DNA of 64,000 bases, taken from contig NW_022985068.1 in the NCBI RefSeq assembly GCF_010015585.1, forward strand, positions 436,106-500,105, written 5' to 3'. The notes beneath the pieces are model-generated. The model was not told where the DNA came from and did not search any database. It saw only the letters and a list, made by a program, of their open reading frames with translations. The stretch comes from Eremomyces bilateralis CBS 781.70 (lineage: Eukaryota > Ascomycota > Dothideomycetes > Eremomycetales > Eremomycetaceae). The position numbers and the translations under genes were made by a program. Of the stretch, positions 1-44,798 are shown piece after piece; the first letter of the stretch is position 1; the number at the start of each line of letters is the position of its first letter.

Positions 1-1877
1 CTGAAGAGGAGCCTGCTCGATAGCTGGCCGATTATAGAGGACGAACCGCTTCGCATCATGGATAAAGCTTGAAATGCCAGGGCAATTACTTAACTAGCCG
101 AACTATTAGCGAAAGCACTTGACGTGCTAGAGGTATACTAACGGAAGTAAATAGCTCTATAGACGCGATAGCATGAGCTCCTTCCGACACCTTCCCCATC
201 CATCCAAGAGCCTCGAGCCAGTGAAGAAGATGCTCCTGCAAGAATTGATGTACTTGACCATTATCGCAAAGTCGAGCACCGCTTTTCTGGAGGTGCTGGA
301 TCCAGTAAAGACATGCGTACTGGACTTCAGGAGGAAGGCTTTTTTCAACTCGGCTTCTCTCGACATTGGCTACAAGCATGCCGGGGGCATCTACGCAACA
401 GATATCTTGCTTGAGTGATGACGACATAAGCTGGATACAGCTGTTGGTTAACACTTGGTGGGCTTCCTTCTCGTCTACCCAGAAATTTGGATCTCCGCAT
501 CTCTTTTTATCGAGAAGAAAGTCGCGAAACGAAGGGTGATGCAGGCGAAGTGGATATATGTCGACCTTAGGGACGTCTAGAATCGCATAAAGATCCCTGA
601 GCACCTGATCGATCTTTTGCTTGGTGATATTAAGCAGCCTGTGAAGCGAGCTGGCAGAGAGCGGAGAGAAGAGAACAACGATGCTTCCAAGAATGTGCCT
701 TTGCATGCCATACGATGCTTCCTTCTCCTTTGCTGAGTAACCTGACCGGATAGATTTCTTTAGGACGGTAGTATAGAGCTTATTAAGGTGTACTTCTGGA
801 TGCTCTTCTGGTGCAGGAATAGAGGTACTGCCTTCTAGCAAAATTTGCACTCTTTCGTCTGCGAGATAACCTTCTTGAATGAACCGACAAGCGGTTGCGG
901 CCCAAATGAACAATCCCCCTGCAATCTGGATCAGGCTTTTGATAATCTCTTCGCCTGGCCAGGAGTCATCCAGAGAGTGCTCCTGTCCAATAAGTTTAAG
1001 ATTATACTCGAAGAAAACAGAGATGTCATGATCTACGATTGAGGGTGATATGCTGTGAAGTACAAAATCCTGGAGATTCGCATTCGGTAGCTGACGGAAT
1101 CCATATCGGATTGGAATCTCAGGTCGGCTCGTTAGTAAGACTCGTAGTCGAACCGTCTTTAACAATCGAGCTTCAGCCAAGAGGTGTATGATAATCCGGA
1201 TGTTATTATCACCGTCGCACTCATCGAGCGCATCAACGATAAGTATGTACGAGGACTGGCTACCGCTTTCACCTAACTTCAATAGTGGACCTAGGATAAG
1301 CTGCTGCCACTGGTCACGGAGGGACTGACTCGTAATGTCGCGGCGCTCTATGATGGCATCGCAAATGTGCTGTTGAAGAGAGGGTATGTTGTTCGCCAGC
1401 TGCCACGCAATGCTCGTGATGAACTTGCCTGCATGGTTAACATCCCCACCGCCGCGCGAGAAGAAGAAGCTGGCTCCGAGATGCTTCTCATCGAAGTACC
1501 TGCGGGCGACAGTGCGCGCAATTGTCGACTTGCCCGTGCCGGCCAAGCCGTTCAACCAGAAAAGAGAGCGCCCATCTTGCCCGTCAGCCCAGTCGTATAT
1601 CTCTTGGAGGAGGTCGACGCGGGTATCGGGAAGGCAGGCCGGGTCGTGTTGTCGCTGGTATGCATTGAACGGCGCGTCCTTTGCGGTAGGGAGGGAGTTG
1701 AGCACATCGTTCAAGTCTAGATTGCTAGTCAGCTTCCTGCTGCTTTGAGGCCATAGCCAGCTAAGCACCCTCACTTTCGCTGCTCCTAAAGTTCACAGAT
1801 CCATGGATAGTGCCAGCGACAACCTGCGAATTCTGGTTGGCGGACACACCGCTAATGAGTTGAGTGCTGCCTGACAT
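1..1877 (-). CDS. NACHT-domain NLR (STAND) protein with N-terminal amyloid-like motif, 3' end outside window
   Basis: Partial fungal NOD-like receptor, a STAND P-loop NTPase expected to act in non-self recognition and heterokaryon incompatibility. Inferred exons: 1877..1775, 1716..143 and 93..1 (continuing off the left edge). Exon 1 gives 34 codons beginning MSGSTQLISGV and carrying a Gly/Asn/Gln/Val-rich stretch resembling an amyloid-signalling motif. Exon 2 carries the NACHT: P-loop GLAGTGKST at about residues 91-99, Walker B ILIVDALDE near 195, and LTSRPE near 227. Exon 3 reads FIHDAKRFVLYNRPAIEQ, the usual linker before WD40 repeats in NACHT-WD40 proteins, so a WD40 or other repeat sensor probably lies beyond position 1. 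Intron 1 (1774..1717) has a gctgac branch and tag acceptor. Intron 2 (142..94) has a gctaat branch. Without splicing, exon 2 has no in-frame ATG near its beginning, which supports the upstream exon. The C-terminal repeat type cannot be seen. Confidence 0.85.
1775..1877 (-). other. Exon encoding a short amyloid-signalling-like N-terminal motif
   Basis: This exon of the NLR encodes 34 residues with the core NQNSQVVAGTIHGSVNF. Fungal NLRs often carry a 20-30 residue amyloid motif (HRAM, sigma or PP/RHIM-like classes) as a separate first exon, and it templates a matching effector. The spacing of Gly, Asn, Gln and beta-branched residues fits that idea. The class is not assigned, and no partner effector with the same motif is visible in the window. 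Confidence 0.6.
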
Positions 1878-18243: not shown

Positions 18244-19534
18244 CGAACTAGATCTATCGTAATGATTGACTGTAGTCCCACGGATGGAGCATGAGCGGAA
18301 CCTCCAACTATTGGCAGACGGCGAACTATCTCTCGTATGAGAAGACGGGCTTGCCCGTCAAGGGAACTCTGCAGTTTCTGGTGTGGATGCGTTTAATGTA
18401 CTGGTCGGTTTGGATGATATTATTGCCGCATGCCGGCACCGCGATTCGACCCACCAGGCGATCGGCTAGATTATGTGCTACAATTCGGTCGCCTAGTTTG
18501 TCTGGAGAGCATATGTTGGTACATCATCTCGATCGCTCGGATCTGTTTCCGATACGGTAAGATAAATGAAATTGGCTGACCACTCCCATTCTAATGTCCC
18601 CAGCTGCAGGAACGGGCAGATGAGGTATGGAAGTACAATATCGCTAAATATATTTTCATCATTCGATTAACAGGGATTGGAGATTCAGTTAGGTTGAGTA
18701 CCATGTACCCACCTAGGTTCGCCGAGCCACTCAGCTTTGCATTGCCTCATGCCTTGTTGTCTATTTGACCGCTTGCGAAGGGTTGCTTGGATTCAAATAC
18801 CTCTCAACTACTTTTATTTATTATTCAACCTAGTCCAAGTCTTCCAGAGCTTTATCGACGCTGAGTGAGTTATAATATCTCTATGACCCTGCCGAGGTAC
18901 CTCATTTTCTATTATACTTGCGCGCCGGCGTCAGATATATTGGCCTTAAGCCAGGCTTCAAATTGAATGCTAACATCCACGTTCATTGAGCAAATCGGAT
19001 CACGGCAGAAACACCAGCATCACTTCACCCTATACCAGGTGCAGCTTGTACTTCGTCTTAGCGTTCACGGTGAAGCGACGATGGCCACACTCGGGGGCTA
19101 CTCCTAGCATCGTGATGTTGGGTTTATAGGGTTTTGCGCCGGGTCACTCGGCGCCTTGAGGTCCTTTAAACTAACCAGACCTGTCGGCTCATCAGCCGAG
19201 AATAGCATCTAATACTGCCCAAGGCCTGGAAACCAATTAGGGATTCCTTCTTCAGAAAAGTACTTAATATAAACCCAATAATGGACCGCATTATCAGCTC
19301 GAGCACATGAAGGCCTATGGAAGAGCTGCGGCGAAGAGGTAGAAGATGTGATTACTCAAGGTAGAGTCAATCAATCTATGATTGCTAAGGCATCATATGA
19401 GAGCCAGGGGCGGAAGAGGAGCCATGCCATATATTCCTACTCATGTCACTCCATATGTGCAGTGCTATTCTAGCTTTCTCTATCGTCAAGTCTTTCGTTT
19501 CAGTCACTCTTTTACAGTCATTCATTTTGCCATC

Positions 19535-22142
19535 ATGAAGTACCATTCCCTTCTTTTGCTGGGTGTTTATCTCAGCAGAACATACGCCCATCACCATGGC
19601 CATCACCAGGATCATCACTATGATCCCCACTATGATCCTCACCATAATCCTCACCATGACCCTCACCGTAATCCTCACCATAATCCTCACCATGATCCTC
19701 ACCATGACGATCACCACGACCGCCACCGTGGCCACGATATAGGAGGCGTACCTGCTGTCAGCACCGTAATCCTCACTGTGACCCCAGTTCCATCTGTGGC
19801 CCTTCCGCCTCTAAAGCCTTCGCCAAGTGCTTCTGGAATCAGCTCTCTCGTCTCGAAGCCTTCGCCAAGTGCTTCGGGAATTAGCTCTATCGTCTCGAAG
19901 CCTTCGCCAAGTGCTTCAGGAATCAGTTCCGTCGTCTCGAAGCCTTCACCAAGTGCTCCGGGAATCAGTTCCGTCGTCTCGAAGNNNNNNNNNNNNNNNN
20001 NNNNNNNNNNNNNNNNNNNNNNNNNNNNNNNNNNNNNNNNNNNNNNNNNNNNNNNNNNNNNNNNNNNNNNNNNNNNNNNNNNNNNNNNNNNNNNNNNNNN
20101 NNNNNNNNNNNNNNNNNNNNNNNNNNNNNNNNNNNNNNNNNNNNNNNNNNNNNNNNNNNNNNNNNNNNNNNNNNNNNNNNNNNNNNNNNNNNNNNNNNNN
20201 NNNNNNNNNNNNNNNNCACCGAGTGCTTCAGGAATCAGCTCCACCGTCTCTAAGCCTTCACCAAGTGCTTCTGGAATCAGCTCCACCGTCTCGAAGCCTT
20301 CACCAAGTGCTTCTGGAGTCTGCTCCCTCGTCTCGAAGCCTTCTAGTTCAGCTTCCGCAGGGACAGGTGCCGGGACCGGATCTGGCGGTCACTATGGACA
20401 TGAGGTTGCGGATCCAAATGCTCCGCACGACCACCCCACCGGCAGCACTCCTCCCTCTGCAAGCACGTCTGTTGGGAACGCCACGACAGTTGGAAACGCC
20501 ACGTCAGGCGGCCATTTTGGACATGAGGCTGCGGACCCAAATGCTCCCCACGATCACCCCATTGGCAGCACCCCCAGCTCTGGAAGTACGCCTGCTGGAA
20601 ACGCCACGGCCAGCGGCCATTTTGGACATGAGGTTACAGATCCGAATGCTCCGCATGATCACGAGATCGGCATCCCCACCCCCTCTGCAAGCACTTCCGT
20701 TGGAAACGCTACGACCGGCACCCATTTTGGACATGAAGTTGCGGATCCGAATGCTCCACACGATCACAAGATCAGCAGCACCACACCAATCGTCCCAGCT
20801 TCAAACAGTTCGGCTGCCGCGTATACCGCCACCGCCAGTGCAGGCCACGGTCATGGTGCGGGAAATGCGAGTGACGATCATGGTCATGGTTCGGGGAATG
20901 CGAGTGACGGTCATGGTCATGGTTCGGATGTTATTGCGCCTCCTGCAGCCACATCCACGGCTGGGGCCGATCCCGACCAAATTCCAGCCAACATCTTCAT
21001 CGAGCCGGCGTTGAACGGAGAACACGGGGAAGGCAAAGCGCTTACCCCTGGCGGGCGACTTGTTACCTTGAAGTACGGTCCGTATAAGGTGGACGCGGAA
21101 GGGATGGTATCGAATCGGCCGCAGATGAACATGGAGAAGCCGTGCAGTGACTGCTATATTGTCGCGCTGCAGGCGGGATTGCGGTACGAGGATGGAACGG
21201 TGGCTAATGTCGACAGTGGAGCGTGGCTGCACCACATGGTGCTTTACCTCCGCGGGACTGGGAGGAAGGATCTTGTCTGCGGTGGAACGCTTGGGATCTA
21301 CCCTCAACGAGTGTAAGATATAGACATGCACCGTCTCTTGGAAGGAGTTGTTAACCAGTCATTCTAGTTATGCCTCGGGCAATGAACGCGTCACCAGCCG
21401 TCTCAACAACCATTACAAATACGGCCTCCACGTCGGACAGGAAGATTCCCTAGGTATGATCTACGATCTCATGAATCAGGACACTACCGGAAAGACCTAC
21501 TACCTCACCCTCACCTACGAGGTCGTGGACGGCGCCGCAGCTCAAGGCTACAAGGCTGCCGAGATGGCTTGGTAAGTCACTAACCCCTTTCCATCCCCTC
21601 CCTCCATCAAACCTGTTCATCTAACGACACTTACTCCCTTCAGGCTCGACATCACCGGCTGCGGTATCTCTGAGTACCCTGCCCGCGAAGGCCTCTACGA
21701 AGTGAAATCCGACGGCTGGAATTCCACCATCAACGGCCGCCTCCTCTCCGCCTCGGGCCACGTGCACAATGGCGGCACTGAGACCGTCATCTACCAGAAC
21801 GGCGCGCCGATCTGCGTCTCGAAGCAGTTCTACAATACGAAGCCGGGCTTCGCGGCGACCGGGGCAGGGCACTCGCATGGCCGGAAGACGAAGAGGGAGA
21901 GCGGGTTAAATATCAGTGAGGCACAGACATGTTTGAATTTTGCGGATATCAAGGTTGGGGATACGTTGGTGGTGGGGGCGAAGTATGATACGGTGAAGTA
22001 TCCATTGGATCAGGATCATCATGGAGGTGGTGGGCCGTCTGACATCGTACGTATTTGTTCCACTGTGCTCCTGTCTATATGTGCGAGAGTAATGGCTAAT
22101 TATGCGCAGATGGGTATTAGTAGGGTGTATATCGGGAACTGA
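19535..22142 (+). CDS. Secreted His-rich, repeat-rich protein with C-terminal SURNod19-like domain
   Basis: Inferred exons 19535..21312, 21368..21571, 21644..22046 and 22110..22142. The signal peptide MKYHSLLLLGVYLSRTYA is followed by about 50 residues that are mostly His, Asp and Pro (HHxPHHDPHHN pattern). Next come 14-residue repeats (KPSPSASGISSxVS), interrupted by a 232-nt assembly gap. Four repeats of about 30 residues with GHFGHEVADPNAPHDH follow, then GHGHG units. The conserved C-terminal domain has GPYKVDAEGMVSNRP, CSDCYIVALQAGLRYEDG, NVDSGAWLHHMVLY, NERVTSRLN, MIYDLMNQDT, LDITGCGISEYP, SGHVHNGG and the end MGISRVYIGN. This matches fungal proteins annotated SURNod19 (stress up-regulated Nod19). 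The HHM and HVH motifs and the His-rich head suggest metal binding (inference). Length is unknown because of the gap. The ATG at 19535 is chosen because it directly starts the signal peptide; an upstream in-frame extension to 19382 is unlikely. Confidence 0.8.
19814..20350 (+). repeat. 42-bp coding tandem repeat (14-aa Ser/Pro/Lys unit), unresolved in the middle
   Basis: Four intact 42-bp units lie before the gap and about three after it, each encoding KPSPSASGISSxVS with small changes (T/V/L/I at one site, P for A once). Near-identity of units explains why the assembly broke here. Confidence 0.92.
19985..20216. other. Assembly gap (232 N)
   Basis: Run of N inside the repeat array. It keeps the reading frame (77 codons plus one base), but 77 codons is not the 14n+1 that whole 14-residue repeats would need at this position, so its stated length is probably an estimate. 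Confidence 1.
20385..20790 (+). repeat. Four coding repeats of the GHEVADPNAPHDH type
   Basis: Four imperfect units of about 30 codons, each beginning G-H-[YF]-G-H-E-[VA]-[AT]-D-P-N-A-P-H-D-H and separated by Ser/Thr/Gly-rich spacers with NAT glycosylation sequons. They lie within the secreted His-rich protein. Confidence 0.85.
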
Positions 22143-30712: not shown

Positions 30713-32738
30713 TTAGTATGACCGTTTCGTCGGCGGAACCTCCTACATCATTGTTAGCATTATCCCAACCACCGAACCGTCCACTCCACTTACCGGAAAC
30801 GTATCATCTAACGGCTTCATTATCACATCCCTCCACCCCACCTTCACCTCATCCCCCACCTCCCCCTGCCACGTCAAACTATGCCTCAAAAACTCCCCAT
30901 CCATCCTCTCCCCATAATCCTCCCGCGCATGACTCCCCCGACTCTCCTTCCGCTCCACCGCCGCCGCCACCGTCTGCGCCGCGCACGTCAACAGGTTCCG
31001 CGTCTCCAGCGCCTCCACTAGGTCGCTGTTCCAGATATACGATCGGTCTTTCAGCGATAGGTCCGTGTTGAACGCCTGCTCCACCTCGCGGACCGTCGAC
31101 TTGCCCGAGACCAGCGACTCTTCCGTGCGGAAGACTGCCACGTCACGCTGCATCGCCCGCTGCATGTCGTCACGGAGCGACGCCGTCAGCCGCTCGCCGT
31201 CCGCCGTCCGCGTCTGCTCGAGCTGCGCGAACGAGGCGTGTCCAATGTCCGCGGGTAGGTCGGGCATAGCGGGGGCGGAGGCAGAGGCGTGCTGCTCGGC
31301 GATGTCGACGGCGGCGGAGAGGCCGAAGACGACGAGAGCGAGGAGGGAAAGGGAGGTGGCGCCGGGGGCGGTGGTGGAAGGGTGGGGTGTGGCGGTAGAG
31401 GTGGTGAGAACTTGTCCTTTGTAGTTGGTGGGGACGCCGCCCATGCAGTAGTGGACGGTTGGGCTGGTTGGGTGTTAGATAGAAAGGGGTGGAGTAGAAG
31501 GGAGGGACTCACAGGACTGGAATCGGCTCTCTCGTCACGTCGATCCCGGCGAAGATGGACGCCGTCTCTGCGATGCCGGGTAATCTCTCCATGATGATCT
31601 CCTTGGGCAAATGGCTCAGCTGCAGGTGGATATGATCCTTATTTGGCCCCACGCCTCGTCCTTCGCGGATCTCCATGTTCATACTTCTCGCCACGACATC
31701 TCTTGATGCCAGATCCTTGGCTGTTGGCGCATATCGCTCCATGAATCTCTCTCCCTCGCTATTCAGCAAGTAACCTCCCTCGCCTCTTGCACCCTCGGTG
31801 ATCAACACTCCCGCGCCGTAGATACCGCTCGGGTGGAATTGCACGAACTCCATATCCTGCAGCGGCAATCCCGCCCTCGACGCCATCGCACACCCATCTC
31901 CCGTACTTGTATGCGCGCTCGTCGCCGAGAAATACGCCCTCCCATAACCCCCCGTTGCAAGGATCGTATTCTTCGCAAACATCCGATGCCTTACCCCATC
32001 CTCCAAACTCAGCGATGTAACCCCCACACACCGCCCATCCACCATCATCAGATCCAGCGCGAAATACTCCACGAAGAACTGGCACCCGCTCTTCAAACTG
32101 GCGCCGTACAGCGTGTGCAGCAGCGCATGGCCTGTCCGGTCGGCGGCGCACGCCGTGCGGTAGGCTTGCCCGCCTTTGCCGAAGTTGAGGGACTGCCCGC
32201 CGATGGCACGCTGGTAGATAGTGCCCTCGGCGGTACGCGAGAAGGGCATGCCCATGTGCTCGAGCTCGACGATGGCGGGGATGGCGTTGGAGGTCATATA
32301 TTGGATGGCGTCTTGGTCGCCGAGCCAATCGCTGCCTTTGACGGTGTCGTAGTGGTGGAAGCGGGGGTCGTCGTCGTGCATGTTGCCGAGGGCGGCGTTA
32401 ATGCCTCCTTGGGCTGCGACGGTGTGGGAGCGGGTTGGGAACTGGATCGATTAGCGGATTGTAAGAGGTGCGGTGATATTGTGGAAGTACCAGTTTCGTT
32501 ATACATGCTGTTTTCAATCCAGCTTCGGTCAATCCTACCGCAGCACGAAGACCTGCACCACCGGCACCGACGACAAGAGCGCTACACTCTATATTAGCAA
32601 CCAGCTCTCAAGTAATCAGTCTGTTCAATCCACTCACTCATAATGATGGTCCACAATCCCCTCAGTGGAGAACTTTCTTCTTGTCCGTGCAAAGGATCTT
32701 GTGCCCTCTCGAACCAATCGGCGCCGCAACGTCCACAT
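30713..32738 (-). CDS. Succinate dehydrogenase flavoprotein (SDHA)-like paralogue lacking the active-site HGANR block
   Basis: Complex II flavoprotein homologue, 606 aa, from exons 32738..32638, 32581..32491, 32441..31513, 31463..30794 and 30742..30713. The presequence [20 protein letters not shown] is Arg-rich. VVGAGGAG binds [12 protein letters not shown] has the covalent-FAD His; [29 protein letters not shown] and [13 protein letters not shown] keep the usual substrate-site His/Thr/Arg/His. The canonical stretch between PG and ANSLLDL (about 19 residues with GEAACVSVHGANRLG) is absent: the chain runs STTAPG directly into [14 protein letters not shown], in frame. That block normally supplies the Glu FAD ligand and the catalytic Arg. 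The following motif is also altered (no LLDL Asp, FGL not FGR), and HYNMGG reads HYCMGG. The C terminus is normal ([16 protein letters not shown]; end VPPTKRSY). Reading: an expressed but probably catalytically crippled paralogue, or an assembly or gene-level deletion. No other SDH gene is nearby. Confidence 0.88.
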
Positions 32739-34460: not shown

Positions 34461-37400
34461 CTACCCCTCCGCCACCCCCGGCCTCCCAATCCTGCCTCTC
34501 AACACCTCCCTCCGCCCCTCCGCCCTCTTCTCCTCCCTCTGCGTCCGCCACCGCCCCATCAACCCCCCAATCCCCACATACTGAATCCTCACCCCCCTCA
34601 ATCCCGGCACCCTCACCCCCTTCTCCACCCCCCGAGGCCTCCCCCCATACACCATCCCCGCCCTCTCCGCCGCATCCTCCGACTCCCCCGATTCCCGCGA
34701 CGACGTCCGGAACGTACTCGCGCTCACCGACCGCCGCATCCCACTCGCCGAAGTCCCCCGCCACGACCCCGCCGTCGACGCCGACATCGCCCGCACATGT
34801 CTCGTCCCGCCTACCTCCCCCGTCACCGCAATCTGCGGCTTACGCCGATTCGTCCCCGCGCGGTCGAGGCCAAGCGAGTTGCCTAGCAGGAACGCCCGTG
34901 CGTCGAGTCCGACGCCAACGGCACTGGTGCCGGGATGGGCGGGGATGCGGGGGCGGGTGGGGCTGTCTTGGTCGGCGCCGTTGGTAATGACGACTTCGCG
35001 GGGGCCGCCGTTCGTGTGGGCGGTCGGCGAGGCGGAGACGGGGAGGGAGGTAGCGCGTTGGCGTTTGCGTTGCTTGAGGCTGGAGAAGCGTTCGAGGACC
35101 TTGCCTCGAACCTTGCCGAGGCCACGGGCTTCGCCGATGTCGCTGGTGTCGCCACCGGGGGGGAGGCGGCTGCCGGGGTCCGGGCCGGAGTCCGGGCCGG
35201 AGTCGGAGTCGGAGTAGTATTCGGGGTCGTCGAGGTCGTCGAGGGAGTAGCGGTGTGGGGAGGGGGAGGGGGCGTCGGAGTCGCGGCGGGGACGAGGGCG
35301 CCAGTTGGGGTGGAGGGTGTTGGAGAGGTCGGTGGGCCGGAGGGATCGAGTGGAGTCGATGGTGGAGGAGCGGGGGCGGGTGCGCGTGGGGAGTGGGAGG
35401 AGAGATGGAAGGGGGTTGCGGGTGGTGATTGCTGGGGCGGTTTGAGGGGGGGAGTCGAGGACACGTTTAGGAGGGTCGGCGTTGGAGATTATGGTGATCA
35501 CGGGCTTGGGGGGAACGCAGATGGGGGATTCGTCGCGCTGATCGATTGGGTTGGTGACCCCGCGGCGGGTGAAGGGGAAGCTGGCACGGGCGAACGGCTG
35601 GATAAAATTGTCGGAGTAGCGACGCGCACGTTGTTTGATGCTTGTTCGGCGGGTCGGAACGGAGCCTCGCCTTACAGGTTTCTCGGCGGAGGCCTCACCA
35701 AGCTGTTGGTCTTCATCCGAATATGGTGTGGGAGGGATGACGCGGAATGCTGGAGGTATCACAGGTGCTGGAGGGGCCGGTGCAGGGCGTGGATTGGTCA
35801 GTGGACTATCGTCCTTGAGGCTTGGAGGATGCGCATCAGGAGGAGTCGAGGGCTCAATCACGACTGTCGGTTGATGAATATCCGATGTATTCAAATTCTT
35901 TGTCGCCTCTTTCACTGCTGCAGAGTCGTCATTTGGCTGAGCGGTAGCTTCATCGCGGGTTTGCGGACGAGATGACGTGCCAGGTCGGGCAGCTTGCTGC
36001 ACGAGCAATAGCGAATCGTTGTTGTGCGGATAGAGGTTGATTGCCGTCGCTTGGCTCACTTCCATGGCGCTGGGTGCGTCGGAATAAACAGAGAATGGCG
36101 TGCCAGGAGTGAGCTGATGCCTGATCGACCCACTCAGGCCATAGTGATCATCGGTCTTTACCGACATGCGGTCCAAACTCATGCGTTGGGCGTCGAAGGA
36201 GACGGAGCGCTCGGAGTTTGTATGAAATGCAGATGAACTCGATGCGTCAGCATGAGCACTAAGTCGAGGTGCTGTTAGACGATCGGGTCTTGCCACTGCA
36301 TTTGTAGCCGCTCTATCCTGTCTCTTTGAATGCTGCGAAGGATCTTCCGGCACCAGGGCTGTAATCGCTAGAATGTTGTCCGGCGGATGCTCAGTCGCAT
36401 CTACCTTCTCGGCCCTTCTTTTTACTACGATCGTCTCATCAGAATCCCGTGGTTGATCTCCCGAGGGAACATAGTCTGGGTTCGAAACGTGGCTGGGGGT
36501 AGGCAAAGCTCTCTTCTCCGGTCCGGCCCCGGCATTTCCAGTAAAATCCGGCCTTAGTATGGTATCAGAGGGGATATGGAACTTTACTGCAGGCCTCTCC
36601 GGCTCGAAGATTGGCTTCAATCTCGATGAGGTCATTGGCTTCTCCGCAGATAACGTACGATCTGTCTGCGATGTACGCAGAACTTTGGAAGGAGCCTTGG
36701 AAGGCACTTCGAGCATCTGCTGCGACCCCTGGTAAACGCTGTTGGCGTTGACTCCAAGGCCATTGTCTATGCCCTGTTTCACGGCTAACTCTCCTTTGCT
36801 CGGCTGCGCGCCTGGCACGGTATCCTGCCCACGAGACTGCGCCGCTCCCAACAACTCGACATCATCCCGATTCCGTAGACTGGGCGGCAACAGAGGTTCC
36901 GTAGCATACTTTCCCTCCACCGGCGCGTCGTCGAGATACGAACCTGGCGCCCCACTATTTACGCTCCTCCCCGACGACTTCGACGACTTCGACGGGGAGG
37001 AATCGATAGCGTTGCTGGATGTCTCGCCAACCGGCTGCACCGCGCCCCCCTGAAGCGCGCGCAGCGCATCGCCGTCGTCCGCGAGCGATCTGCTTCTCCC
37101 GTGGGGGCGGCTGCGCTGCGCGCCCGGATAGGACGGCGCGGGGCCATTCCGCAGCGCAGCATCGTCGATCGCGGAGCCGAACGCGACTTTTTTCGGCACC
37201 GTCCGCGATTTATGGCGGAGTGGGTGCGGCGGGCTGGATTCATTGGAGACGAGGGACGAGCGGTTGGACGTCGTGAGCGTGATTGGGGAGATGGAGGCGG
37301 ATTGATTGCCGCCGCGGAGGCGGAGGGACTCGCGCTTGGAGACGTGGCGGAGGATGGGTTTGCGGGGGTCGTAGCGGATGTGGGAGATAGAGTCGCCGAC

Positions 37401-38279
37401 GGAGAGGGGGGAGGCGTCGGAGATGCTTCGTCGGTTGGAGTGGCCGCCATCGAGGGGGGAGAGGTTGGTCTGGATTTTGGGACCAAGCGATTTGCGTCGC
37501 ATGGGGGTTACGGCGGTGCTATCGTCAGTGGGAATCGAGTTCCGGCCGGTCCGTACCGGACTGTATTGCACTTCTCGTTCGGGCTGTGGGTGAACGTGTC
37601 GTAATCTTTGGAAAGCTGATGCGCTGATAGCGCCGTTCATTCCGGGATCATAGCCAGAGTCGTGCGTACCAGGACGATCGGCACCGCTCGAGGTGTATTG
37701 CACGCCTTTTCCTTTGATAATCCCCGCTCTCGCGGTAGCCATGTCAATTGGGGTACTCTTAGTCCGAGAATGAAGACTGGTATTCGGCGAGGGTCCACCA
37801 GGAAGTCCTAGTTTCCCGTTCGTCATGTAATACAGATCGGTCGAGAGCTTGTCGGATGGAGTATGGGTCTGCGTTTCCTCCTCCGAATCGAGGTCTTCCT
37901 GGGCCGTCTTAAACGACTCTGCCGCTGATGAAGGATAATGGTTGGGGGAGGGTCTGACCGGGACGGAGGGAGTGGGTGGGGTGGTTTCTGGGGTTGGCGG
38001 GCCTTGAAGATTAGCGGGAGTGAGTCGGTCGGGGGTCCAAGGGTAAGTGGCCATGGTGACGTCTTTCGCGCTCCCCGATGGAGGCGTGGGAGGAAGAATG
38101 CCCTCGTTGGGGGACTTCACACGTTCGCTAGTCCTTGCGGAGCGCCCGTTTGTTCGTAGGGGTTTAGAGGAATTGGTGCCGTGCGGTTGGATCGCTGCTG
38201 AATCCACGGAGTGTCGACTGGGTGCCAGAATGAACTTCCCGGAAGGCTGGTGCGGATCAATTACATGCGTGACCTGCAT
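34461..38279 (-). CDS. Large disordered protein of unknown function (1272 aa)
   Basis: Single 1272-codon frame without introns. I do not recognise a domain. The protein is rich in Ser, Pro, Arg and Thr with many SP/TP and RRxS-like sites (for example RRKSLGPKIQTNLSPLDGGH, RRGSVPTRRTSIKQRARRYS), which suggests an intrinsically disordered phospho-regulated protein. The N terminus MQVTHVIDPHQPSGKFILAP and the C-terminal segment GLRGVRIQYVGIGGLMGRW look more ordered and are the best candidates for conserved parts. Codon use shifts to C/G-rich and low-complexity in the last 1 kb. It diverges from the next large orphan across 2.2 kb. Membrane segments and signal peptide are absent. The gene call rests on length and coding character only. 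Confidence 0.75.
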   Translation of the reverse strand: MQVTHVIDPHQPSGKFILAPSRHSVDSAAIQPHGTNSSKPLRTNGRSARTSERVKSPNEGILPPTPPSGSAKDVTMATYPWTPDRLTPANLQGPPTPETTPPTPSVPVRPSPNHYPSSAAESFKTAQEDLDSEEETQTHTPSDKLSTDLYYMTNGKLGLPGGPSPNTSLHSRTKSTPIDMATARAGIIKGKGVQYTSSGADRPGTHDSGYDPGMNGAISASAFQRLRHVHPQPEREVQYSPVRTGRNSIPTDDSTAVTPMRRKSLGPKIQTNLSPLDGGHSNRRSISDASPLSVGDSISHIRYDPRKPILRHVSKRESLRLRGGNQSASISPITLTTSNRSSLVSNESSPPHPLRHKSRTVPKKVAFGSAIDDAALRNGPAPSYPGAQRSRPHGRSRSLADDGDALRALQGGAVQPVGETSSNAIDSSPSKSSKSSGRSVNSGAPGSYLDDAPVEGKYATEPLLPPSLRNRDDVELLGAAQSRGQDTVPGAQPSKGELAVKQGIDNGLGVNANSVYQGSQQMLEVPSKAPSKVLRTSQTDRTLSAEKPMTSSRLKPIFEPERPAVKFHIPSDTILRPDFTGNAGAGPEKRALPTPSHVSNPDYVPSGDQPRDSDETIVVKRRAEKVDATEHPPDNILAITALVPEDPSQHSKRQDRAATNAVARPDRLTAPRLSAHADASSSSAFHTNSERSVSFDAQRMSLDRMSVKTDDHYGLSGSIRHQLTPGTPFSVYSDAPSAMEVSQATAINLYPHNNDSLLLVQQAARPGTSSRPQTRDEATAQPNDDSAAVKEATKNLNTSDIHQPTVVIEPSTPPDAHPPSLKDDSPLTNPRPAPAPPAPVIPPAFRVIPPTPYSDEDQQLGEASAEKPVRRGSVPTRRTSIKQRARRYSDNFIQPFARASFPFTRRGVTNPIDQRDESPICVPPKPVITIISNADPPKRVLDSPPQTAPAITTRNPLPSLLPLPTRTRPRSSTIDSTRSLRPTDLSNTLHPNWRPRPRRDSDAPSPSPHRYSLDDLDDPEYYSDSDSGPDSGPDPGSRLPPGGDTSDIGEARGLGKVRGKVLERFSSLKQRKRQRATSLPVSASPTAHTNGGPREVVITNGADQDSPTRPRIPAHPGTSAVGVGLDARAFLLGNSLGLDRAGTNRRKPQIAVTGEVGGTRHVRAMSASTAGSWRGTSASGMRRSVSASTFRTSSRESGESEDAAERAGMVYGGRPRGVEKGVRVPGLRGVRIQYVGIGGLMGRWRTQREEKRAEGRREVLRGRIGRPGVAEG

Positions 38280-40475
38280 CCTTAGTGTGGTATGAACGCA
38301 ATCCGAGACTCCATCGGAAATATCGAGAACAGAGCCGCAAGACGGTCGCGATGGAATACTTCTGGAAAGAATCGGTCCTCGTGCAGCGTTGCGCCGTGGG
38401 CGGCGGTGCGACTTAATTTCCCAGCCACCTTTTCAACGGGGGTCGTCACCACGACTGCATCCCCCGATCTCTCGCATCCAGGACCGTCGGATATCGAGAG
38501 ATTCGAGGCTTTCGAGGACCCCTAGAAAGTTTGCTCTCAGCGGATCCGGGTGGGGAGTATATCTGCAGGACGTTCTGCAGGATGTGAAGCGTCGTGGTTC
38601 CCCTCGTTCACGATGATAGGTTCGGCTTGTCGCGAGACGAAACAAGGCGATGCGCAACGGGATGCGCAACGAGGAGGGATAACGTGATGCGTCGAACAGT
38701 GCTCTGGGAACGATGTCGCGATGAGTTCGAGGCAGTTCGGATTATTATTGGAGTAAGAAATGAAATTGTTCTGAAGTGCTGAGAAAAGACATAGGGAGAA
38801 TGGGGATTGGGGAGGCGTTGAGGGCCGGGATGAAGCAGAGGCGTTTCGGCGTGGGGTGGGGGTTCACTGGGCGCCGTGTGACCGGTCTACGGCCACTGAA
38901 GATGAGGAGAGGGGATATGCACGGTTGGAATAGAACAGAGCGTACTCCGTACGAAAGAAATCGATAGGATGATTACAAGAGTGGTTTTCGACCAGAAGTA
39001 CAAGTGACGATGATGGGTTAAGATAGATAGATTGAAGGATTGGGGTGAGGAGCCAAATGGGGGCAATGAGAGAGAATGTCCGAGAAGATGCGACAAGGGA
39101 GAGCAGATGACGCCTCCAATGATGTCGATGATCTCTCTCATATAGTCTTATAACCGGTACGTATCTCATAAGCCTGTACGAATAATACTACCGGTATAGC
39201 TAATATTAGGAGTGATATGAGTCGTGATGAGGGCTTTGGATCCTTCATGGAGATTCGGCCCCTGCGTTTGAATAATGTTGGTCTGTAGTACTATTGTCCT
39301 AACTATTGTTTGAACTGGTAGGCAAACCGAAAAGTCTTCAGTTGACTACTTCGACTTTAGAGATCCAAGGTGCTGTTAATATATCACGGTCCGGACCATC
39401 CCTCGTTACTGAAACACATTCGGATCTTGATGTGGCACTTCGCGGGGTACGGAGAATTGGCGGGGAGAGACACCCAGTCGACCCAGATCGCCCTCCAGAT
39501 CGCCATCCCGATAATAGATCTCAATCATCAACATCTTCCTCGAGTCACTTGATCTCCGTGGCGCAATATCGAACATCATCTTATCTTCGGCCCCGTCTCT
39601 TCCGCTCAGTCTCGTCCTCTGAGTTAGTAGCCCAATCATCGGTGCATGCTAGCAGAGCGTTTGCTCCCCCCATCCTCTCTCTATCGTGGTACGGTACACA
39701 AAGGGTCTTCTTATTTATTCCCCGGATCCTGATATTGGTCACTTAATATCTCCGGGAGATGACCCTTTTGCTAGTGAGCCATGGTTGGGGTCACCACTGG
39801 AAATTAGAATTTCATCGCTTCCGTTCGGAACTATCGTACAGTTACCTATGTCTCTGCTCCAATTTGAAGGTTACTATGATGATGATAGACATCGGTGATT
39901 TTCGACTTTTAGTCCGTCTTCGCTACTGCTGGCTGCTCCGTAGTGCCTTTGATGGGATCCGAAGTACTTGGCGGGAATCTATTTTGAGGATATGTACTGA
40001 TTATTACCTTACAATTCAGGATTAAGGCTTCAGGGACTTTATCGTCGAAGTGCAAGCACAGACATGTGACGCTAATAGAACGGGTCTCTCCCACGGCGGA
40101 TTGCTTCTCTTGTTTCTCCAGTACAATAGCATTCATGTCAATACACTCATGTCAATACAATCAGGTGGAGTTTTATGACCCATCAGACACCAACGGTCAA
40201 TCGTCAATAGGCTGTGCCGACTGAACACCTCACCAATTCCCCATCATTCATCAATCATCACCATCCATCCGGCCAGCTCCACCAAAAGGGACTAAGCATC
40301 CCCGCCATCCACTGTGGCAGCTTTGCCAGGGTCTCCTAGCCAAACCTGAATATCCCGCACTCCACGCTTCCATTGTGCCCTCCCCCATGAGAACACCACC
40401 ACCCTCACCTCTTCCTCTTCTCGTCTCCTTCATTACTCCATCCCCTCCACCCCTCTCTCGGCATAGGATCTCTCT
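38280..40475. promoter_or_regulatory. 2.2-kb divergent intergenic region between two large orphan genes
   Basis: Holds the 5' regions of the minus-strand 1272-aa gene and the plus-strand 1408-aa gene. The 300 bp next to 40476 are C/T-rich on the plus strand, typical of fungal core promoters. Repeated ACCGGTA-type words occur near 39150-39200. The open frame at 39306-39746 has no recognisable domain. Confidence 0.4.
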
Positions 40476-43400
40476 ATGTCCACTATGGGCGACGATGGAG
40501 ATGTCGACCACAAGCGATTTGCCCGCCCCAAGTGGCTAACCAAACCCACCCACAAGTCCGCCAGCAAGGAAAAGGGCCGCCCGGGAGACATCCCCCAACC
40601 CTTCTACACCAGTGCATCCAACCAACTTAGCGACGATGTTCAAGACTTCCTCAAACCTTCCACCACGAAAGCTCGCTCCTTCGCTCCGAAACTCGCTCCC
40701 AAAATCGATATCGCCGCCGCACAACGCTATCCCACTGCCAATGATGTTAACACCTCTCGGACGCCGTCGTCGATCAAAGGGAGGAGTGCAAGGAATCGGG
40801 CGAGGCTGAATGTCGCATGGGATGATGGCGCACTGGAGATCATGGGATATGGAGGGGACGACTGCGATGAGCCGACCATGGCGATCTCAAAATCAAAAGC
40901 GAGGGATGTGGGCGCCCGAAATGCGGCGAAGAAGCCCGAGCCACGATGGGAGCCGCCTCCGGTGCGCATGAGCTTGGAAGATCATACGCTACGGCCGACA
41001 CGAGGCAATGTTTCGGAGCCGGTAGGAAATTCGGGTGACCTGGAAAGGAGCAATACGTTGCCCCCTAATCAGCGGTCAAGTTGGGCCATTGTTCCTCCGT
41101 CGTTGACGGTATCCACCACCGTGGGTGCCGATGACGATGACGATGACTTCCAGCCGAAGCCACTCCAGCGAGCGCCCACGGGCTGGTCGGATTATTTAGA
41201 AGAGGAGGACGATCTACCAGCCAAGTCTCCCAAGTCACCGATTTCTCCAACCCAGGTCCTTCAGCAACGGATGCGACAGGAGGAAGGCCGGATCCTACAT
41301 CAAGTGCGGAGAAGCCAGTTGCTGGAGCTCCCAGATGACTTGTCGGATCTATCACTGGGCGATGCCTTGGGCCCATCTGGGACCTCGGCGACACAACCGA
41401 AACAACCACCTGCACCGGGTCCAAAACCAGATAAATATGCGGGTAAATCCACGCGAGAGGAAAAGCGGAGTTCCGCCTCTCCTCTCCGTGAGCCAACGCT
41501 TCCAAGAATTGAGTCCCATGATGCACCATCGAGCGGTTCAGATTTTTCCGCTTCGAAACACCCCGAACCTCGCAATATTCCACCCCCACCGACCAGATAT
41601 CTCAGCGCAGACGCCGTCCCCGTACAACCGCACCCACGAACTGGTCCCCCACCCGCTGGCTCATATACCACACCGTCTCCAAATTTCCATGCTAGGCTCT
41701 CCCCAGGATACCGCGAAGAGTATCAGACACCACCTGGCCCGTTTCCGCTATCGATCAACGAACCCCACCCTCCATCGGTTGACCCTCAAGCACGAACTGC
41801 CAGTCGCCCGTCCGCCGACCGGCCTCCCTCCCGCCCCCCGCGCTCCCCAGGGCTAATCCAAACCCAAAACCACCCCCCCAATTCCCTCCCGTACTTCTCC
41901 GCCGCCAAGATCGACCAGGAAGAAGCCCTCAGCCAGCTAACACCAGACTCCGTCAAAAACCCCACCTCCGCCACCGCCGACATGTCGCTCATCGATTTCG
42001 CCGACCGCATCGGCCACATGCGCCGAATCTTCCCGCTAACCGCGGAGCGCGAATCCCCCATTGCCCAGTTCACCGCCAAGCAGTGGCTCCGCGCCGCCGT
42101 GTGGTGGTTCCTGCGCGCCCGCCAACGCTTCGAAGAGCTGATTCGCGCGCGGGCGAAAGCCCAGCACTCGCTGGATTCCCCCGGAACGCAGCAGCTGGAC
42201 CAGGGGCACGTGGACTTGGGAAAGACGTTCTGGATCTTGGAGGACGTGCTGCCGTCGCATAAGCAGCTGCAGGATTACATGAGTGTCGACGATGATTCGC
42301 AGAAGGCGGCGGCGCAGGCGGCGGGGGATCAGTATGCGGCAGGGATCTTCTCGGAGGCATCGACGCTGCGGGGGCAGATGAAGCTGTTGGCGTCGTCGAT
42401 GACGAGGAATAAGCTGATGCCGCCGCATGAGGTGCTCATTCAAGGGCTCGATCAACTCATATGGATCCGGTATCCCAAGCTGCCGTTCCCCGAGATCCCG
42501 GCGGTCGCGATGTCGTGTATCGGGCACGACTTGCTTCCTTTTGACGACGCACGGGTGCTGTTCACCATGACGGTTGCGGACACCCATGAGTACTTCTGTT
42601 TGCACCGGTGTTTCGTGCTAGTAACGATCGATCCGGACTATATGCAGGACGTCGAGATTAAGAAAATGCCGGCGCTCCTGACCATTCTGCGTCGTCGAGG
42701 CACGCACGATATGAAATTGACGCTCGCGACGCAGAATGACACCATCAACTTCATCGTGAGTAATTTCAGTACGGTGATTTGATATTCGCTAACCTGGTTA
42801 GTATGAGGACAAGCTTCCGTGGGACGACATAGTCGCACTGAACCGTTCGAGACCGGAAATGCGAATCGCACTGCCTAGTCCGTGGCCTAACGATACCTAC
42901 CTCATGATCGCCCTCAACCCCTCCGATTTCACGACGATACGAAAGGCATACGACTCTACATACGCTGCAGCCACTGCTATCGAACAGCAACGAAACGAAA
43001 CCCTACTTTACCAGGGAATCCTGCGAGAATTCTACTTCAAATTCCTGCAAGGTCCTGCCCACCAAAATGGACCGCAATCCCACCCCCCCGAACGACCGTC
43101 GATCTACAATTTCCCCAGCGGAGCATTTCCCAGTACTTCGATCCATATCTTCGGGGTTTACACACGGCGACCCGTGCATAGTGGCGGGTATCGAAGCGAG
43201 TCGCTCTCGGGCTTTCGGGTCGTCATTACTACCACGGGATACAAGAGCATGAACACACTAACTCTGACATTTCCCGCTACACAGCCGGAGCATCTTGGAT
43301 CATACATGGATGCAAGTGGCTTTCCCGTCCTCGTCATGTTCCATTACGGCCCCGCACAGACTCGCGGAGATCTCGTCCTGAGTTTCCGATCCGTCCAAGA

Positions 43401-44798
43401 ACGCGAACAGTTGTTGGAGGTCATGCGAGGCTTCTACATCCAACCAGGCGAGCAGGTTCTCGCGGAACTTCCGCTCGATAGCTTCGACCTCGAAGAAGTC
43501 GAGTCTCGCAAACGATACCCGGCATCCGGCCAGCCGCCCTGGAGCAAGTTGAGCATCATTCAAACCATCAAGCCCGATCGTTCCACCTACCTCCGGATCG
43601 TCTTCAACTCGGCGGCGCAAGGATATAGGATTACCCTGACCGACCGCTTCACCAACCAGTCGTCGCAGTTAAAATTTCGCATCGCCACGGACCTTGAGCC
43701 GCGCATCGAGTTCCTTCGCTCCGATCCCCATGATCTCAGCTGCACCATCGAACGGACCGACCCCTCCACCAAAGTCGGCCCGGAATGGAGCCAGCTCCTC
43801 CACGCCACCGAATCCCCCACCATCCGTTCCTACACCTTCTCCACCATGTCCGACCTGCACACCTTGGAATCCATCCTCACTGGATTCACCGTGAAATACG
43901 ACTGGTAAGTCCCCCCACCCACCATCACCCAGGCCTCCAACTCACCCCATATAGCTCCCCTCAATCTTTCACTCTCTCCCGCTCCCGCCGCTCCGCCCTC
44001 TCCCTCACCCGCACCCCCAAATCCTCTTCCACAACCCGCCTCCAAATCCTCGAACAACTCCACTCCCCTACCCACCCACCCCTCACCCTCCTCCTCGCCT
44101 TCTTCGCCTCCTGGCCCCAAGCCCCCTATCTCGCCATCCCCCTCCGCCCCTCCGACGCCTTCGAGCGCCTCGACCCCTCCCGCCTCGCCCTCGCCTCCGC
44201 CACCACCACCTCTGCTTCCGCCCCCGGCAAATTCGCCATCAAGTTCCCCGACGCCAAATTCGGCTTCCCCACCACCCGCTCCAAGCCCCGCAGCCGCGAC
44301 CCCTCCCCCCGCAACAGCGTCGACCACCGCCCGGACACCGCCACTAGTGACGGCTCGCCCGCGCTAGCCGGATCGCTTCTCAGCGCGGGCGGCGGGCGCG
44401 GGAAGCGCGAGAGCGTGCTGCTGGACGGGCTGAGCTCCGCGTGGAAGGAGGGGGGATTCGCTGGGCGGTACGACACGGGGGGAACGGCGGGGCAGGGAGC
44501 CGGGGAGGCGGAGGTGGGGTACGTGAATTTGGCGGATCTGCCGTTCGCGGCCGAGCGGGAGGAGGTGGTGGTGGGGTTTGCAGGGAGTGAGGAGCGGGGA
44601 AGGCTGTGGGCGGCGTTGCCGAGGATGGGGGGGGAGGTGGGGGTTGGGGCAGAGGAAGAGTATGGGGGGAGATATGGAGGGAAGGAGAGGGATAAGGAAA
44701 GGCAGAAGAAGCAGAGTAAGGTGTTGAGGAAGAAAGAGGATGAGGAGGAGGAAGGGAAGGGGAGGCATGGGAGATTCTGGAGACGGGAGAAGGAGTGA
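40476..44798 (+). CDS. Large conserved-looking protein of unknown function (1408 aa)
   Basis: Exons 40476..42755, 42802..43904 and 43955..44798; both introns (46 and 50 nt) keep phase and have gctaac-type or CT-rich acceptors. No named domain recognised. Residues 1 to about 490 are disordered (Ser/Pro-rich, polyPro). Residues about 500-930 look folded, for example LIDFADRIGHMRRIFPLTAE, WLRAAVWWFLRARQRFEELI, GKTFWILEDVLPSHKQL, LIQGLDQLIWIRYPKLPFPE and YEDKLPWDDIVALNRSRPEM. A further beta-rich part around 1000-1130 (SIHIFGVYTRRPVHSGGYRS and similar) may be a PH-like fold (weak inference). The tail is Lys/Glu-rich and charged (KERDKERQKKQSK). The start could also be the second ATG at 40485. Cellular role unknown. 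Confidence 0.8.

Follow-up and report, generated by a model that had tools for sequence, protein, structure and literature searches.

The window, a 64,000-nucleotide stretch of Eremomyces bilateralis CBS 781.70 DNA, contains a member of the SDHA family from which the dicarboxylate/FAD block has been removed in frame, an assignment supported by the observations presented below. The explanation that we tentatively prefer is that this gene encodes a catalytically dead SDHA paralogue that stands beside a normal SDHA, and that may still meet the partners of complex II and damp the complex.

The gene lies on the minus strand, at window positions 32738..30713, and comprises five exons and four introns with an open frame of 606 codons that runs from the ATG at 32738 to a stop codon ending at 30713, with no internal stop once spliced. 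The introns measure 56, 49, 49 and 51 bp, and GT...AG borders are found at every one of them. Exon 1 (32638..32738) provides the ATG and a mitochondrial-type presequence that is rich in Arg (9 Arg/Lys vs 2 Asp/Glu in residues 1-28), and exon 2 (32491..32581) encodes the GAGGAG Rossmann dinucleotide-binding motif within the TIGR01816 match. A start of exon 2 at the first AG was rejected because it gives a stop, whereas the acceptor TGTAG, cut before a C, keeps the frame open. Exon 3 (31513..32441) carries the His90 equivalent, which we take to be the residue bearing the covalent FAD, as well as the cap domain, the equivalents of His287, Thr299 and Arg331, and the substitutions W110P and F164I (yeast numbering here and below). 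Exon 4 (30794..31463) includes the HYCMGG motif, the altered junction and the helical and C-terminal domains, and the conserved C terminus EVPPTKRSY, which aligns with the yeast end VPPTVRAY, occupies together with the stop codon a 30-bp exon of its own (exon 5, 30713..30742). When the spliced frame was re-read, the coordinates, the strand and the five exons given by the initial annotation all proved correct, and the presequence, the covalent-FAD His and the C terminus, which it had described as retained, are all present. At the protein level, TIGR01816 scores 805 bits against a curated cut-off of 727.35, PF02910 is covered along model positions 1-130 of 130, and the PF00890 match spans only model positions 1-383 of 414. 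Identity to yeast Sdh1 (PDB 9QDL) reaches 62% over the aligned positions, and both the His90 equivalent and the checked glycines of GAGGAG are retained.

The block that is absent consists of 19 residues around GEAACVSVHGANRLG, between PG and ATSL. The deletion point is located at 31360..31363 on the minus strand; 57 bp are missing at a break at 31361/31360, the reading frame is kept, and the loss takes away residues 427-445, approximately, of yeast Sdh1, including Glu433 and the HGANR motif with Arg444. Shortly after the gap, a 6-bp in-frame insertion read from the sequence (31343..31348, minus strand) adds SL and is apparently a tandem duplication (TCCCTT/TCCCTC). The surroundings are altered as well, with N400C upstream of the gap and N448T, D452A and R458L just after it, in a stretch that was aligned by hand and in which MAFFT places a few residues beside the gap differently. 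Alignment confirms that the 19-residue block with HGANR is lost at 31360/31361, as first proposed from inspection, and the accompanying flank changes (HYN to HYC, LLDL to LLAL and FGR to FGL) are all real. The possibility that the motif sits in a hidden exon was rejected, as a search for HGAN, GANRL and GEAAxV in the six frames of the whole window returned two unrelated HGAN strings only.

To place this loss in context, the window protein was compared with 82 SDHAs, namely yeast 9QDL, Perkinsus 9FZL and the best 80 of 595 bacterial stretches, which were found with window-protein peptides lying outside the missing block. HGANRLG is encoded in 79 of these best 80 bacterial SDHAs and in 81 of the 82 rows, and nine columns within the gap are invariant across all 82 (bacterial part, best 80 of 595). 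Moreover, the three relatives located on viral contigs keep HGANR intact (3/3). Because the motif is near-universal in the comparison SDHAs, the loss of the block is not a matter of chance.

Regarding catalysis, the equivalents of His90, His287, Thr299-Glu300, Arg331, His398 and Tyr399 are retained, and the residue test for an active SDHA came out negative on Glu433 and Arg444, both of which fall within the missing block. In yeast Sdh1, the main chain of Glu433 touches FAD and a K+ ion and Arg444 lies in the substrate site, according to the available text of PMC13066397, which also gives roles for His287, Arg331, His398 and Tyr399. Four human residues are used for docking in the accessible part of PMC9170585 (Thr308, Arg340, His407 and Arg451); when mapped to yeast by motif, three have equivalents in the window protein and that of Arg451 is lost. 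In the portions available of PMC7758838, the human Arg451Cys substitution is described as leaving the amount of SDHA unchanged and causing a dominant complex II deficiency, with a residual activity of 33-51% in one family, and the covalent FAD bond cannot form when the change is placed in the E. coli homologue. Given these effects, and since the fungal protein has lost the same Arg together with 18 neighbours, it should lack activity, and it would probably be apo or else loosely flavinylated. Judged from the sequence, succinate binding and closure of the FAD pocket should fail without Glu433 and Arg444, so that catalysis should be lost, and covalent flavinylation probably fails too. In addition, F164 corresponds to avian Phe130, presumably a dicarboxylate contact; the position is invariant and yet Ile in the window protein.

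Apart from this region, the protein is well preserved in terms of conserved columns, which were divided into those inside and those outside yeast 395-460, the counts for yeast and Perkinsus being leave-one-out. The 82-SDHA set (bacterial part, best 80 of 595 stretches) holds 180 invariant columns, 12 of which are broken by the window protein. Outside the interval it breaks 2/158 (W110P and F164I), vs 4/162 in yeast and 3/161 in Perkinsus; inside it breaks 10/22, vs 0/22 in both, and the worst bacterium among the best 80 of 595 breaks 2. At columns conserved in at least 95% of the set, the broken fraction outside is 13/230 for the window protein, 11/232 for yeast and 13/232 for Perkinsus, and inside it is 19/36, 3/38 and 4/37, respectively. 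In mean identity to the bacterial set (best 80 of 595), the window protein (60%) falls slightly below yeast (66%) and Perkinsus (64%). Leaving the block aside, these counts of broken columns place the window protein under the same degree of constraint as active enzymes.

The columns flanking the gap may also inform on the age of the change, which the initial annotation regarded as an old event and not as one recent deletion. In this flank, which was chosen post hoc, columns conserved in at least 95% are broken more often than elsewhere (5/21 vs 13/230, Fisher p = 0.011), as are those conserved in at least 90% (6/26 vs 20/265, p = 0.019), whereas the strictly invariant flanking columns show no significant difference (1/13 vs 2/158, p = 0.21). 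An old change thus obtains moderate support, which comes from the near-invariant columns and does not extend to the strictly invariant ones. Structure prediction was tried as a further test of the junction and rejected as non-discriminating. In the model of the exon-4 fragment, the helical domain is confidently predicted and has SDHA chains of the PDB as structural matches, and residues 6-40 show pLDDT < 50; an intact fragment from a bacterium, taken as control (L045), likewise has low confidence at the junction (pLDDT < 50 at residues 1-19 and 29-56), which is why the model cannot discriminate there. The control presents strands at 15-17 and 27-32 and a helix at 44-47 that the window model lacks. 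Lacking this piece of the FAD domain, the protein may fail to fold.

The assembly (26.6 Mb, 62 contigs) was searched for other components of complex II. No second SDHA was found in it with PF00890 (15/39 first-look candidates scored), PF02910, TIGR01816 or the exon-3 protein; the closest gene, a fumarate-reductase-like one on C10 that is presumably of the Osm1 type, has a cytochrome b5 domain and keeps HGANRLGG. Nor was SDHB found in the assembly, whether by PF13085 (E up to 0.001, a single candidate being scored and not reported), by TIGR00384 (E up to 10; zero candidates) or by a typed probe that had no positive control. In bacterial and archaeal control genomes, PF13085 gave matches in 11/14 and TIGR00384 in 13/14. 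SDHC (C10), SDHD (C37) and SDHAF2 (C6) are present, the first two exceeding their Pfam cut-offs and looking intact by eye, and a working SDHA is therefore expected somewhere. Fumarase is found on C9, split by an intron into pieces that each remain below the family cut-off. PF00118 detects nine CCT/Hsp60 loci, which is the number expected, and has a further match within an open frame of 2445 residues, so that, judged by this single sample, the assembly appears fairly complete; stretches reading N in the searched sequence are another possible reason for absent genes. Since SDHB was not found either, the silence of the assembly on a second SDHA is weak evidence. The same holds for the point, raised by the initial annotation, that an only SDHA would speak against its interpretation: no other copy was found, and half of that argument stands, weakened by the failure to find SDHB. 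As a separate observation, the SDHC gene (L037, G000:C10:53500-56500), which alone in the assembly matches Sdh_cyt at E up to 10, carries RFSHWYASGFHRITG after RPVSPHISIY.

In the explanation that we prefer, a real, spliceable and mitochondrially targeted SDHA-family gene would give rise to a catalytically dead product and would most likely be a second copy, beside a normal SDHA that the assembly lacks. The helical and C-terminal domains are as conserved as in active enzymes, which suggests that contact with partners is most likely kept. The dead SDHA would most likely meet the assembly factors and SDHB and, by occupying these partners, may damp or buffer complex II. Several patient substitutions sit at the SDHA-SDHB interface, as reported in the available sections of PMC7758838, and on our own reading of the domain limits in the accessible text of PMC13066397 they fall in the helical domain. 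Together with the exon-4 model of that domain and the SDHAF2/SDHAF4 complexes discussed below, these interface data make damping or buffering the likeliest function, if the gene has indeed been kept by selection. The idea put forward at the outset, of a complex II subunit that is conserved and yet altered, is plausible and partly supported, by the loss of the block and the conservation of the remainder.

The rival that survives best, although somewhat unlikely, is a young pseudogene, that is, an SDHA copy recently inactivated by a real lesion, whose product would have no role. Catalytic residues gone with nearly all other invariant columns intact, and decay that is local to the gap, would be expected of such a copy, and its ordinary codon bias is consistent with it. 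Nc is 50.5 for the window SDHA, a weaker bias than in three sampled mitochondrial genes (the last exon of the Osm1-like gene, 32.9; fumarase, 42.1; SDHC, 44.3); four CCT pieces have values of 35.5-51.4, and eight other genes of the window 47.8-58.5. In favour of the preferred explanation, this bias points to a copy expressed at a modest level more than to a housekeeping SDHA, without being decisive. However, 606 codons have been preserved with neither stop nor frameshift, the four introns are intact, and both the deletion and the insertion preserve the frame. Moreover, F164I and W110P lie > 800 bases from the gap, which suggests that constraint on the active site had already been relaxed. The wholly open frame speaks against a long-dead pseudogene, while a young one is possible.

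It is unlikely that a sequence or assembly error has disguised an ordinary gene, the only SDHA of the fungus. Such an error could have arisen in the G-rich tract that covers the junction on the non-coding plus strand (31345..31387), which has a relaxed quadruplex-like pattern with loops up to 12 and no match to the strict pattern with 1-7 loops, and which could be the cause either of the deletion or of sequencing trouble. The single-strand DNA fold of the junction is unremarkable (z -1.88; 9/200 shuffles equally good). An ordinary gene would agree with the finding of one SDHA in an assembly that includes SDHC, SDHD and SDHAF2, and with the active appearance of everything outside the junction. 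Nevertheless, the gap is not clean, as 57 bp lost, 6 bp added and several changed conserved codons are all in frame, and in our judgement mistakes would rarely keep the frame in both indels. The invariant W110 and F164, > 800 bases off, are changed too, and the failure to find SDHB indicates that the assembly may miss genes.

A new catalytic function, in which another substrate is used without the Arg/Glu block, is very improbable: the FAD-binding N terminus, the covalent-FAD His and the capping Arg and His are retained, but the lost block carries the main-chain contact to FAD and K+, and the Ser/Thr/Pro-rich stretch that precedes the gap has no recognisable motif. Least probable of all is that complex II activity has been lost entirely, with SDHA decayed and SDHB gone, since the three unsuccessful SDHB searches and the failure to find another SDHA in an assembly that looks fairly complete on one sample are set against intact-looking SDHC and SDHD genes, the presence of SDHAF2 and an uncontrolled typed probe, and such a loss in a filamentous ascomycete would, to our knowledge, be extraordinary.

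If the gene is real and kept, it would offer a natural experiment in which the part of SDHA in catalysis can be told apart from its part in structure. It would also be a candidate for an endogenous regulator of complex II, which SDHI fungicides target. A bolder version, in which a maintained SDHA pseudoenzyme replaces the active flavoprotein and sets the output of complex II as a built-in dominant-negative subunit, is unlikely. Were the gene the only SDHA, it would be either an error worth correcting or the mark of a filamentous fungus in which complex II does not oxidise succinate.

The window also encodes a NACHT / NPHP3_N protein that is NLR-like (89-1792, minus strand), a Fungal_trans factor and, at 40467-44795 on the plus strand, DUF7611, DUF7612, DUF7613 and DUF7614 over three open frames that are probably one multi-exon gene. 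Taken with long open frames and short introns, the NACHT protein and the Fungal_trans factor point to a filamentous ascomycete. Open frames of 1323 residues (34464-38432, minus strand) and 644 residues (19382-21313, plus strand) match nothing in Pfam at E up to 0.001, and the whole window has no tRNA and no Rfam match at the gathering score.

In the open-licence literature on SDHA paralogues and pseudoenzymes, complex II loss and active-site residues, to the extent that its text was available, no description of this case was found. The metabolic pseudoenzyme paralogues of Drosophila are comparable in being copies of central-metabolism enzymes, predicted to be dead, beside the canonical enzyme, although the term SDHA is absent from the main text of PMC11836677 as available. 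Yeast YJL045W is a fungal SDHA duplicate, in this case of Sdh1, as the window gene would be of a normal SDHA under the preferred explanation, but it originated by whole-genome duplication and is expressed in the diauxic shift, and no missing block is mentioned in the accessible part of PMC2803194. The window protein resembles Sdh1 and mitochondrial SDHA in its full-length homology, its TIGR01816 score above cut-off, its presequence and its C terminus, and differs from Sdh1 (PDB 9QDL) in the 19-residue block and in N400C, N448T, D452A, R458L, F164I and W110P. As for the proposed contact with partners, Complex II-low provides a precedent in which SDHA is held in SDHAF2/SDHAF4 complexes outside the tetramer, the SDHA involved being the normal one of human cells, as described in the sections available of PMC10238741. 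A parallel at the lesion itself is Arg451Cys, which by motif mapping, and within the portions available of PMC7758838, hits the Arg equivalent to the one lost here; it is a single substitution of patients, whereas the window SDHA bears a fixed loss of 19 residues.
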